In this document: positions 11,381 to 15,974 of the stretch, in pieces | Position numbering within the stretch: the first letter of the stretch is position 1 | Layout: every line of letters begins with the position of its first letter | IMG/VR virus record: IMGVR_UViG_3300010370_000081 | Location: 1 to 39,716 of that record | Reading direction: 5' to 3' (one strand) | Length of the DNA: 39,716 nucleotides | From: a virus | The notes under the pieces: generated by a model | Seen by the model: the letters and a program-made list of their open reading frames with translations, nothing else | Told to the model about the DNA's origin: nothing | Databases searched by the model: none | Translations under genes and position numbers: made by a program

Positions 11381-14300
11381 TTATGCTGCCTGTCTTTGTA
11401 ATCTTATGAGTAGTGGTACTTCTCTAGATACTTGTCTTATTTGCTGAGATTGATTGATTTGCTGATTTGCTCCAGGGCCAACATTTCCTCCAGCAGATGT
11501 TACCTGACCCATATTTCTCATTTGTGCTTGATCTGCAGCCGCCATACCAGTACCAGCTCCACTCAATTGAGCTCCTGTTTGTGGACTTCCTTGTTGTGGA
11601 GTAGCTACAGCACCACCTTGAGCACCATATCTAGCTAGTCTTGCATCGAGATCTGCTATTGTTATTGTACCGTCATTGTTTACGTCGAGTCCCTTATTAT
11701 ACTCATAATAAGACTCACCTCTCTGTGTTAGAACATCTCTATTAGCTCTTCCAGGTAGGAATACGTAAGCATATAATCGTCCTGCACTAGATCCAGGTTG
11801 AACTCTAACACTCTGAAAATATTTTTCAACGTAGGGCATTTGTTGAACAGCAGACATTTGTCTTATGGCTTCTACTGTAGTACCAAGAGATCTTGCTGTA
11901 TTTGGCATAAACTGTATTAGACCAGAAGCCCCTGTTGATCTGTTGACAGCCTGAGGATTTAGACTCGATTCAGATCTCATTACGGCTAAAAGATTAGCAG
12001 GATTTATTCCAAATCTAGAAGACACTCTATTTACTTCTGACATAAAATCACCACCGCCTTGACCGGGCATTTGTTGTTGTCCAGGCGCTTGTGGTGTAAC
12101 AGGAGTACTAGGTGTAGAACCATTACTAGGTTGTGATTGTGGTATCACCGCTGTGGGGGATGTAGATAATCCTGTGCTATTAGATGGTGATATTGATGTA
12201 CCGGTTGCATGGGAATGTTGATCACCACCGCTTCCTCCAACATTAGGAATACTAGGGCTAGAAATAGATCCTATGACATTACCACCACTAGAGATTTGGG
12301 TAGTCATAGATGAAGTCATAGAAGTTGGAGTAATCAATCCAGCGCCACCACCTGTATTTACTTCTCTTTCCGTAGTACTAGTTGGTCTAGGAGCTGATAT
12401 TCTAGAAATTACATCCGAAATAATTTCGCCATCAAATATGATGGTTTCAGCTTCTATTTGTATTTCATCAAATTCAGTTTTGGCAATCATATCGATAAGA
12501 TTTTCTGGATATGGAAGATTTATACCTTCAATTCCTTTATAATCGTCATCTTCATCATATGAACCAGAAGAATCATTTATCTGTGTTGTTGATCTAGTAG
12601 CTGATTCCATACTTACTAGTATAACTGGTGCTGCAGGTACTGCAGGTGTTACTGGTGTAACTGATGTAACTGGTGCTGCAGGTACTGCAGGTGTTACTGG
12701 TGTAACTGATGTAACTGGTGCTGTAGGTGTTACTGGTGCTGTAGGTGTTACTGGTGTAACTGGTGCTGCAGGTGACTCAGGCACCTCAGGTGTTACTGAC
12801 TGCAATATTCTAGAGGTAGTTTCTTTTCTTGAATTTATTAGTGGTTCAAGTCTTGAAAGTAATCTCCCCATGCCCTCTTTAGCTCTTTTTTGCATGGGGC
12901 TGTTACCTGAAATATCAATCCTAAGAAGAGGTGCAATACCTGCCATTACATCAGCACCTATGGCATTATACAAACTTTCATCCTGTTGAGCTGCCTGATA
13001 TATTTGAAGTAATTGTTCTCTAGTTTCATTTGTTATTTCAGGTCTTATTGGATTAGGTGCATCAATTATTAACTCATTGAGAGCTTTGGTTATTGCTGAA
13101 CCTAGTGCACTCATTCTTTCTTGTACTAAATTGGGATCTTTTTCCTCTTCTATTTTAATGCCGTATACTGCTTCATAAACATCTCTGGTCAAGAGCCCAA
13201 CATCAATGGCTACAGATGCTGCTGTGCCAAGACCAAACGTTACGCCACCAAGTGCTCCTGCCACACCAGAAGTAAGTTCAAGTCCAGCTCCTATCCAATC
13301 ACCTGCTTGAGCTCTACTTACACCAAACCATATACCTGCTAGAATTCCAGCAAATGGAATTTTTTTAGCTATTTCTCTACCCAATGATTTCTTTATTGTT
13401 TCTCTTATAGTCTGTTCTGCTGCTTGACTTATCACTACTGTGGCTGTCGCCGCTTGAGCACCAGCTGCAGCTGCTTGTCCCATAGATTGACCTGTAGCAG
13501 CCCCTGCCCCTGCCCCTGCACCAGCACCAATGGCACCAGCACTAATCACACCAGTAGTCGGTCTTATTCTTGAGGTTACAGAAGGTTGTCTTATAGCCTC
13601 TGGTGCTGATGGTCTTACAGCCTCTGGTGTAACTGGTGGTCTTGTGACCTCTGGTGCTGATGGTCTTACAGCCTCTGGTGTAACTGGTGGTCTTGTGACC
13701 TCTGGTGCTAGTGGTCTTGTGACCTCTGGTGCTGGTGGTCTTATAGCCTCTGGTGCTGGTGGTGTAACTGGTGGTCTTACAGCCTCTGGTGCTGATGGTC
13801 TTGTGACCTCTGGTGCTGGTGGTCTTATAGCCTCTGGTGTAACTGGTGGTCTTGTGACCTCTGGTGCTGGTGGTCTTATAGCCTCTGGTGCTGGTGGTGT
13901 AACTGGTGGTCTTACAGTCTCTGGTGTAACTGGTGGTCTTGTGACCTCTGGTGCTGGTGGTGTAACTGGTGGTCTTATAGCCTCTGGTGCTGGTGGTGTA
14001 ACTGGTGGTCTTATAGCCTCTGGTGCTGGTGGTGTAACTGGTGGTCTTGTAGTTAAATTTGTTCCTAATATACCTGCTGCAATTTTTGCTCTCGTCCCAG
14101 ATACAGCTTTTGAAACTGCTCTCTGTGCACCTATTGAACCTCTTCTTATTCTCTTATATACTTCCGCTGCTCTTTTACCGGCAGCTTCAGCTCTTCTAGT
14201 TCTTCTGATTTCTTTTATACGATCAAGCCGCCTTTGTGCACCAGGTCTAGGTGCACCCTTCCCAATTTTTCCTGATGATCTTCTTCCACCGCCTGGTGTA

Positions 14301-14623
14301 TCAGGAGAACCTGTATCTTTTCTAGACTTCAGTGCATTTAATATCTGTGCTAGTAAGTTATTTTGTTCTAGAAAATTATCACCAATTCCTCGAACTGATA
14401 CCAATGAATTATCAATCAAACTTGAATTTGTTTTTTCTTTTTTCTCTAAATCAGCTGATTTTAATTTATCAGTAAAACTTGATAATGAATTTCTATCATC
14501 CGACATTATTTTGGATATTGATGGAAATCTTTCTATAAGTATATCTGAACCAACTGATGAAATATTTGATCTAATTGATTTAGTTTGGTCTTGTTGTTTT
14601 CTTGGTAAATTTCTTTTTTCCAT
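11381..14623 (-). CDS. Giant tail-associated protein with lytic transglycosylase domain; tape-measure candidate
   Basis: 1080 residues. N-terminal 110 residues helical; a basic Arg/Lys/Ala stretch at 110-185; a proline repeat linker ([11 protein letters not shown] type) at about 188-344. A long hydrophobic Gly/Ala region with [19 protein letters not shown] and two or three potential membrane helices covers about 360-480, a style common in T4-like tail proteins that insert into membrane. A second linker covers about 611-671. A goose-type/SLT transglycosylase domain at about 865-960 has MRSESSLNP (catalytic Glu885) and [13 protein letters not shown]. An EF-hand-like loop [13 protein letters not shown] lies at about 977-989. 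It starts one base inside the holin-like gene's stop and is followed immediately by the M15 gene. Injection-time cell-wall cutting is the likely role; which of the pair is the tape measure is unknown. Confidence 0.75.
12627..12716 (-). repeat. Two perfect 45-bp tandem repeats
   Basis: The 45-base unit at 12627-12671 is repeated exactly at 12672-12716 and continues as shorter degenerate steps to about 12790. Each unit encodes 15 residues of the Val/Thr/Pro/Ala linker of the transglycosylase protein. Perfect identity at synonymous positions points to recent duplication. Confidence 0.9.
13586..14048 (-). repeat. Coding minisatellite (Arg-Pro-Pro-Val-Thr-Pro) in the transglycosylase protein
   Basis: About 460 bases of tandem 12-, 15-, 24- and 36-base units around GGTGGTCTTATAGCCTCTGG in plus-strand reading. 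They encode [12 protein letters not shown] and shortened forms. All are multiples of three. The array also leaves an open frame on the plus strand, which is an artefact of the repeat. Confidence 0.9.
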
Positions 14624-15042
14624 TACGGTAAATTATTACCTCTTAATTTTTCTAGACCTCGAGTCCAAGCAGTGACTCCAAGTATTGCACCAAATGAAAG
14701 ATGTATTAATCCACCATTTTCTAGAGTAAGACTTTTCCAAGGTACGTAGTTAGCCTCATCTATTCCAAGACTTTTTAAAAGAACTGGCATGAGCATAGCA
14801 AGTACCGGAAATAAAACAAAGTCTACAAAGCATATCACCATATAAAGCCAACCCATGGCTGGTCTCCAAAAGGACTTTATCCAGTGTTCCTTTTGTATTT
14901 CTTGTGCTCTTTCTAATTCTTTTCTGTCTAATTCACTATATGCTAGATCGACAGATTCAAAATGAGATCCCGTTTTACCTTCTGAATTTCTTGGAGGTAA
15001 AACGGGATCTTGTTCGGATGATGATTCATTGAATCTTGCCAT
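14623..15042 (-). CDS. Holin-like membrane protein (3TM-holin style)
   Basis: 139 residues: a polar N-terminal 50 residues, a charged helix (LDRKELERAQEIQKEHWIK), then FWRPAMGWLYMVICFVDFVL and a further hydrophobic run to about 89. A last hydrophobic stretch covers 111-126 (GLIHLSFGAILGVTAW), before a basic end. The WRP motif before the first membrane helix and the closing LGVTAWTRGLEK are typical of the 3TM holin family of phages and gene transfer agents. It stands first behind a late promoter and is coupled (TAATG) to the transglycosylase gene, so it may make membrane holes for lysis. A structural membrane-interacting role is the alternative. Confidence 0.6.
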   Translation of the reverse strand: MARFNESSSEQDPVLPPRNSEGKTGSHFESVDLAYSELDRKELERAQEIQKEHWIKSFWRPAMGWLYMVICFVDFVLFPVLAMLMPVLLKSLGIDEANYVPWKSLTLENGGLIHLSFGAILGVTAWTRGLEKLRGNNLP

Positions 15043-15090: not shown

Positions 15091-15276
15091 TCATCCGTTA
15101 TTTCTCTTTCTTTGTTCTTCTAACTCTTTTAAGAAATTGAGAAGCAATTGAACGTAAATATCCCTTTCAAACGGGATCATATCTTCTACATCGCTTAAAG
15201 AATATTTGTGATGCTGAATCAATGAGAATACTGTAAGATAGTAATTCTCTAATGTATTGTGACTCAGCCCAACGTA
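15091..15276 (-). CDS. gp26 -1 frame extension (gp51-position tail chaperone-like segment)
   Basis: Immediately after the T7 run near the end of gp26, the -1 frame is open for 61 codons (YVGLSHNTLENYYL ... ending KRNNG) and reads as real protein: YSLSDVEDMIPFERDIYV then a Leu/Lys/Glu-rich helix. No ATG or GTG start precedes the conserved part, and the frame runs straight back into gp26, so the natural way to make it is -1 frameshifting, giving a fusion of about 294 residues. The IPFERDIYV pattern is one I associate with second-frame parts of phage tail assembly chaperones. Its position, right after gp26, is that of T4 gene 51 (hub assembly). Alternatively it starts at an internal TTG, giving a shorter protein. 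Confidence 0.6.
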   Translation of the reverse strand, partial: YVGLSHNTLENYYLTVFSLIQHHKYSLSDVEDMIPFERDIYVQLLLNFLKELEEQRKRNNG

Positions 15277-15974
15277 AAAAAATCTGTTAAACTTGTTAGT
15301 TCAATTCTTCTTTCTTTACCGTTTTCATTCGTGTATTCTAGTTTATGATATAGTCTAGGATTATTACTCATAAACTCTTGAATCTTGGTAAATACTTCAA
15401 TTCCGCAATCATCAAGAAATTGTTCAATCTCTTCTTTAGAGTAATCAGACGCTTCATAGACTTCATCTTCATCATAGATTTTATCAATACTACGAAGAAC
15501 TAATTCAAAGAAAGCCTGATCGCCTGTTTTAAAATAGTCCCTATCGTCAAATAACGATGCAGATGGGTATTTCATTTGAATACCCATCTTATCTGTTACT
15601 TTAATAACTTTTTCAATTTTATCTGGAAATTGAACTTCAACTGTTTTTAAATCAATATTGAAGTTGTATATCTTTTGATCTTCATTATCTCTGTATGAAA
15701 CTTCTACGACGTTGTTTACAGAAACTGCTCTTAACTGAAGGAACAAATATTCAAGATCAAAGATTGCAATCTTATCAACGTCAAATGAATTATTCATGCA
15801 ACAGTTACCAACTATTTGCTTTACAGCTCTAAAAATATCTCCGGGATCCTCGGATGCTTTAGCCATAAGCAAAATCTTTTCTTCCTTTACCAGAAAGGGT
15901 CTAAAAGATTCTATTTTACCAGTAGATGGAATTTTGAAATCATAAAGTGGATGTTTTACTTTTGGTAGTGGCAT
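15264..15974 (-). CDS. 26: Baseplate hub subunit gp26 / T4_baseplate family
   Basis: 236 residues (T4: 208). The opening LPKVKHPLYDFKIPSTGKIESFRPFLVKEEKILLMA and the later CGIEVFTKIQEFM / YTNENGKERRIEL regions match the T4 gp26 family (PF12322). These are baseplate hub or assembly-chaperone-like proteins. A good ribosome site (GGAGAG) lies about 8 bases before the ATG. Near the end, codons GAT TTT TTT ACG contain seven T's at which a -1 shift would extend the protein (see separate entries); without it the protein ends three residues later. It follows the tail-tube-like gene after 28 bases in the same minus-strand operon. Confidence 0.85.
   Translation of the reverse strand: MPLPKVKHPLYDFKIPSTGKIESFRPFLVKEEKILLMAKASEDPGDIFRAVKQIVGNCCMNNSFDVDKIAIFDLEYLFLQLRAVSVNNVVEVSYRDNEDQKIYNFNIDLKTVEVQFPDKIEKVIKVTDKMGIQMKYPSASLFDDRDYFKTGDQAFFELVLRSIDKIYDEDEVYEASDYSKEEIEQFLDDCGIEVFTKIQEFMSNNPRLYHKLEYTNENGKERRIELTSLTDFFTLG
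15276..15282 (-). promoter_or_regulatory. Probable -1 ribosomal frameshift site (T TTT TTT)
   Basis: Minus-strand heptamer of seven T's, in the gp26 frame as T TTT TTT, the ideal X XXY YYZ arrangement. After slipping back one base, translation continues as TAC GTT GGG CTG through 61 further codons instead of stopping at 15264. I see no obvious strong hairpin just downstream, so efficiency cannot be judged from sequence. Confidence 0.6.

Follow-up and report, generated by a model that had tools for sequence, protein, structure and literature searches.

A single gene of the marine phage studied here is, with high probability, translated into both a short (TAC-N) and a long (TAC-NC, similar to T4 gp51) tail assembly chaperone, by a -1 ribosomal frameshift at the heptamer T TTT TTT near the end of gp26. 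The gene lies on the minus strand of the window, by which we mean the whole stretch of 39,716 nucleotides analysed (IMG/VR record IMGVR_UViG_3300010370_000081). A -1 frameshift of the G/GT tail-chaperone type had been proposed for this locus in the initial annotation, and the proposal is strongly supported by the heptamer, the selected -1 frame, a covarying RNA stem, homology to T4 gp51 and a predicted TAC-like fold. The slippage itself, its rate and the chaperone function of the products are what we infer from sequence comparison. The features concerned are the following.

15264..15974, minus strand: gp26, the 0-frame product of 236 aa, putative short tail assembly chaperone (TAC-N), Pfam T4_baseplate (PF12322, E 2.7e-55; phrog_150, baseplate hub; predicted fold similar to the HK97 tail assembly chaperone, residues 1-86).
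15276..15282, minus strand: slippery heptamer T TTT TTT, in phase with gp26 (from the sequence; also in 96 of 97 nonredundant relatives).
15091..15276, minus strand: -1 frame encoding the C-terminal 61 aa of the predicted frameshift product, with stop codon, labelled 'gp51, baseplate hub assembly catalyst' in relatives (phrog_634, E 2e-25; tblastn matches in 582 phage records; third-position differences 56-58%).
15094..15974, minus strand: predicted frameshift fusion (TAC-NC) of 294 aa, equivalent of T4 gp51 (fused profile against T4-type gp51, 245 columns, probability 99.4, E 5.1e-21).
15260..15268, minus strand: 5' arm of the putative stimulatory stem, GCTGAGTCA, starting 7 nt past the heptamer and including the gp26 stop codon (covariation, 37 sequences).
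15213..15221, minus strand: 3' arm of the same stem, TGATTCAGC (covariation, 37 sequences).
Predicted junction peptide of the fusion between gp26 and the -1 frame: SLTDFFYVGLSHNTLENYY.

On the minus strand gp26 ends GAT TTT TTT ACG TTG GGC TGA, with the TGA stop at 15264-15266 and the heptamer read in the phase GA[T TTT TTT]. Starting at 15300, the -1 frame contains no stop until 15091-15093; its first codon after a slip would be TAC (15276-15274), followed through to the stop by a peptide of 61 codons in all, YVGLSHNTLENYY...RKRNNG. The slippery site and the 61-codon open frame were thus both found at these coordinates as initially annotated. The accompanying statement that the frame has no ATG or GTG start holds for the first 32 post-slip codons, which contain no TTG either, but not for the whole domain, as an ATG is present at codon 33 (EDMIPFE), from which a product of only about 29 residues would result.

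Relatives of gp26 were gathered from viral contigs and annotated phages, giving 97 nonredundant loci with less than 85% DNA identity to one another, and comparison of their gp26 ends found the T-run and the -1 frame conserved together in 96 of the 97. The in-phase heptamer, TTTTTT[C/T/G], lies zero to three codons ahead of the gp26 stop in these 96 loci, with C as the final base in 57, T in 38 and G in one, and the codon ahead of it ends in T in every case (GAT, AGT, TCT, AAT, GCT or GGT). Among 19,193 codon positions elsewhere in these gp26 genes, 2 have the pattern T TTT TTN, and the chance of a T-ending codon followed by TTT in all 96, calculated from the codon usage of each gene and ignoring kinship, is about 10^-36.6. 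Since the site is in phase in 96 of 97 loci, is nearly absent elsewhere and has so low a probability under codon usage, its conservation is beyond chance. The sole heptamer ending in G belongs to Rhizobium phage RHph_Y68 (locus L105, near 1200), which carries T TTT TTG together with a TGATG overlap.

In 96/96 loci the -1 frame extends for 40 codons or more without a stop, the +1 frame is closed in 96/96, and on the 5' side of the heptamer the -1 frame is open over a median of only 7 codons (97-locus set). Between relatives, 56-58% of the differences fall at third positions of the -1 frame; by this comparison the frame beyond the slip is under protein-level selection. Four more isolate loci were also inspected: the heptamer is present in pf16, Melnitz-1 and OLIVR6, and VAP7 (Vapseptimavirus, L123) reads GTT TTT CGC TAA TG. 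A search of genome contigs yielded no confirmed relative.

By the last base of the heptamer we distinguish two types, T7 (the clade of the window) and T6C (the cyanophage-type clade), each with RNA signals of its own. Among the 37 sequences of the T7 type, nine base pairs join alignment columns 15-23 with 62-70, forming a stem that a 7-nt spacer separates from the heptamer; the proportion of paired cells is 92.2%, as against 15-34% for slid partners, six of the nine pairs have changed on both sides, and none of 500 shuffles scored as high on any measure. Compared with synonymous recodings, the RNA 3' of the heptamer was more stable than expected (mean z -3.04 for T7, -2.38 for T6C, -2.8 for the window), under a null in which the -1 frame alone was preserved, even though its first codons are shared with the gp26 frame; further downstream the same test gave z of only -0.1 to -0.8. 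With its 7-nt spacer the stem lies within the distance typical of stimulatory structures, about 5-9 nt past the slip site, and should promote the slip. In the T6C type, a Shine-Dalgarno-like motif ending 9 nt ahead of the heptamer was observed in 52 of 57 loci, where about 1.2 would be expected from control positions, and the Glu codon that forms it is GAG in 37 of 45 cases against a background of 30% (p 8.8e-13), a bias that marks the motif as codon-selected; the register of the T6C hairpins varies between subgroups. The upstream motif is absent from the window and present in just 8 of the 38 members of its clade. Both the stem and the upstream Shine-Dalgarno motif are additions to the initial annotation, and the RNA hairpin was previously unannotated. 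An Rfam match to a group I intron on the other strand lies below threshold and was taken as chance.

The identity of the long product follows from T4 gp51 itself, in which residues 1-201 match PF12322, the family of gp26 (E 3.9e-52), and residues 147-246 match phrog_634. The alignment of the marine fusion profile with T4-type gp51 covers 245 columns and continues through the junction. Because T4 gp51 has a gp26-like N-terminal domain and the alignment runs from end to end, the whole frameshift product, and not its tail alone, corresponds to T4 gp51 at the level of sequence, and T4 gp26 and gp51 would be the counterparts of the short and long forms. The initial reading of a gp51-position domain fused to gp26 is accordingly kept as to the fusion, but the name 'gp51' belongs to the entire product. 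In the T4-like contig L116 (1501-2246), the gp51 gene, in the frame read, stops after 120 codons although the tblastn match extends to residue 247; sister loci are intact, and the stop is either an interruption or a sequence error.

An AlphaFold model of gp26 (pLDDT 89.6) had as its top solved matches 3FGX (Z 8.2), 2OB9, the HK97 tail assembly chaperone (Z 7.5), 3KLU (Z 6.8) and 5IR0 (Z 5.0), followed by the next chain at Z 2.4, scores within the range that a common fold arrangement can also give. Since plain Foldseek alone matched the model to 2OB9 with an E of only about 1, the support for a tail assembly chaperone fold in gp26 is moderate. Comparison of the gp26 and gp51 profiles with the sequences of solved structures gave nothing useful.

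On the 3' side of gp26/51 lie a holin-like ORF of 139 aa (14623-15042, minus strand; GTA_holin_3TM, E 1.2e-5), situated between the gp51 frame and the next gene, and a large gene for a 1080-aa protein with a transglycosylase domain. No match to a tape-measure family was obtained among the genes downstream of gp26/51 in the window, and in PHROG the genes at this position in marine phages do not match phrog_1283, the family hit by T4 gp29. The plus strand carries an open frame of 394 codons (13491-14675) opposite the stretch that encodes the PVTPPAPE repeats of the 1080-aa protein; it seems to be a side effect of the repeat composition. Methylophilales phage Melnitz-1 (L125) has a gene order similar to that of the window (head completion, two hypothetical genes, gp26, gp51, a small ORF and a large ORF), hinting at a marine heterotroph as the host of the window phage.

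The main competing explanation is the one implied by GenBank, in which a small gene of its own, gp51, encodes the -1 domain and is translated through coupling or reinitiation where gp26 stops, with the heptamer incidental. Annotation gives it some backing, as gp51 is a CDS of its own in S-PM2, S-SM2, ACG-2014f, P-HM1 and others; so do the start codons found within the first ten -1 codons in 62 of 96 loci, the ATG within 16 codons of the -1 frame in 54 of 96, many of them cyanophage relatives, the TAATG or TGATG overlap in 10 of 97, and the Campanilevirus-type phages described below, which have TAATG and no heptamer. However, the remaining 34 of 96 loci, the window among them, have no ATG, GTG or TTG in these ten codons, and no early -1 start in any locus is preceded by a Shine-Dalgarno motif of at least 4 bases at the usual distance. 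The annotated gp51 starts also disagree, their positions relative to the gp26 stop varying among records, as expected if annotators took the first available methionine, and several phage records leave the -1 domain unannotated. A separate gene would moreover leave the heptamer, the stem and the upstream Shine-Dalgarno motif unexplained, and T4 gp51 is continuous across the junction. We therefore regard this explanation as improbable; for the window, an independent gp51 start was rejected because the first 32 post-slip codons hold no start codon, and in cyanophage relatives with an early ATG a separately started product is possible. A CTG start at the gp26 stop (CTGA overlap) was considered as well and is unlikely, as the Leu concerned is encoded by CTC, CTA or CTT in many loci.

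Two further explanations dispense with ribosomal slippage altogether. A fused message could arise if RNA polymerase added or dropped U's on the T run, but bacterial polymerases usually slip on runs longer than 6 T's and 58 of the 96 loci have just 6, which makes transcriptional slippage very improbable. The run in the window does reach 7 T's, and homopolymer slippage by polymerase is known (PMC5009743); what is conserved among relatives, however, is the codon phase, with a final C or G tolerated, together with an RNA stem, and this fits ribosomes. Division of a gp26-51 gene into two frames by sequencing error or gene decay might be suspected at a homopolymer run, a typical error site, yet the same frame relation recurs in 96 of 97 loci, from isolate genomes and metagenome contigs obtained independently, and the -1 frame is under selection, so that this explanation is refuted and retains practically no probability.

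Loss of the slippery run alongside an ATG-started gene was found in one lineage only. In the Vibrio Campanilevirus-type phages GR28A, YC and D510 (gp26 ends in L118, L119 and L007) the -1 domain is kept, the heptamer is absent and a TAATG stop-start overlap is present, which suggests, from these gp26 ends, that translational coupling has replaced the frameshift. Such phages had been named in advance as grounds against frameshifting, and they restrict it in that lineage, whereas the heptamer holds in 96 of 97 loci. Schizotequatrovirus phages have both the heptamer and a TAATG overlap. We see about even chances that the ratio of short to long chaperone is a conserved trait across T4-like phages, set by interchangeable mechanisms: frameshifting (U7 with a long-loop stem, or Shine-Dalgarno with U6C and a hairpin), stop-start coupling (Campanilevirus-type) or two genes in opposite orientation (T4).

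Under the favoured frameshift, a minority of ribosomes on the last gp26 codons would pause at the stem-loop 7 nt past U UUU UUU, and both tRNA-Phe, in the P and A sites, would re-pair one base back. Translation would then run on for 61 codons and yield the 294-aa long form (TAC-NC) that corresponds to T4 gp51. By the example of lambda G/GT, the short form may coat the tape measure protein, and the extra domain of the long form may recruit the tail tube or a hub/tube initiator.

The fusion matches 648 records, so that the arrangement extends to hundreds of cyanophage and marine phage genomes. In the records examined gp51 is either a separate gene with inconsistent starts or omitted, and the real gp51 product is very probably the gp26 fusion, a reading that affects annotation, proteomics and the reconstitution of hub or tail assembly. 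Through the alignment, T4 gp51, long just a 'hub assembly catalyst', is linked with the longer of two tail chaperone forms, and with the signals now defined the short/long ratio can be tested by mutation.

Compared with known systems, the marine phage proteins belong to the same families as the T4-like gp26/gp51 chaperones, gp26 to PF12322 and the fusion resembling T4 gp51 along its length. T4, however, encodes the two forms in divergent genes, 26 on the minus strand and 51 on the opposite, plus strand, and the 3' end of gene 26 lacks a slippery run, whereas the marine phage has one gene and a predicted frameshift. The -1 frameshift of E. coli dnaX combines an upstream Shine-Dalgarno sequence, the heptamer A AAA AAG and a downstream hairpin; the layout of the T6C group is alike, but dnaX is an unrelated gene with a different heptamer, and the window has no upstream motif. 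Phage P2 has an E/E' frameshift (Christie 2002). P2 reportedly uses T TTT TTG, the same heptamer as that of the Rhizobium phage RHph_Y68 relative, although gp26 did not match the P2 E family in Pfam. Lambda G/GT likewise comprises a short and a frameshift-extended tail chaperone, the latter arising when ribosomes slip by -1 on a heptamer close to where the first frame ends. The lambda heptamer differs from U UUU UUY, which in the marine phages is followed by a covarying stem and, among relatives of the cyanophage type, preceded by a Shine-Dalgarno motif.

For lambda, the -1 frameshift was described by Levin (1993) and Xu (2004) and is reviewed in PMC5009743, according to which both gpG and gpGT attach to the tape measure and the T domain is the part that binds the tube protein. 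By analogy, the same division of labour may apply to the marine phage chaperones. That review lists T4 as an exception to G-T frameshifting. T4-like tail chaperones were nevertheless identified by Vladimirov, Gautam and Davidson (2022, Virology 566:9-15), as cited in PMC10885494 and PMC12846349; the former takes from that work that in some T4-like phages a short gene occurs together with a longer, fused one, and the latter credits it with the poly-T signals for -1 frameshifting in T4-like TAC-N genes. On these accounts, the suggestion that the feature had been overlooked has to be withdrawn, both the chaperones and the poly-T signals being already known. As far as these citing papers convey the earlier work, the window system is of the lambda G/GT type and of a known kind, better defined here.
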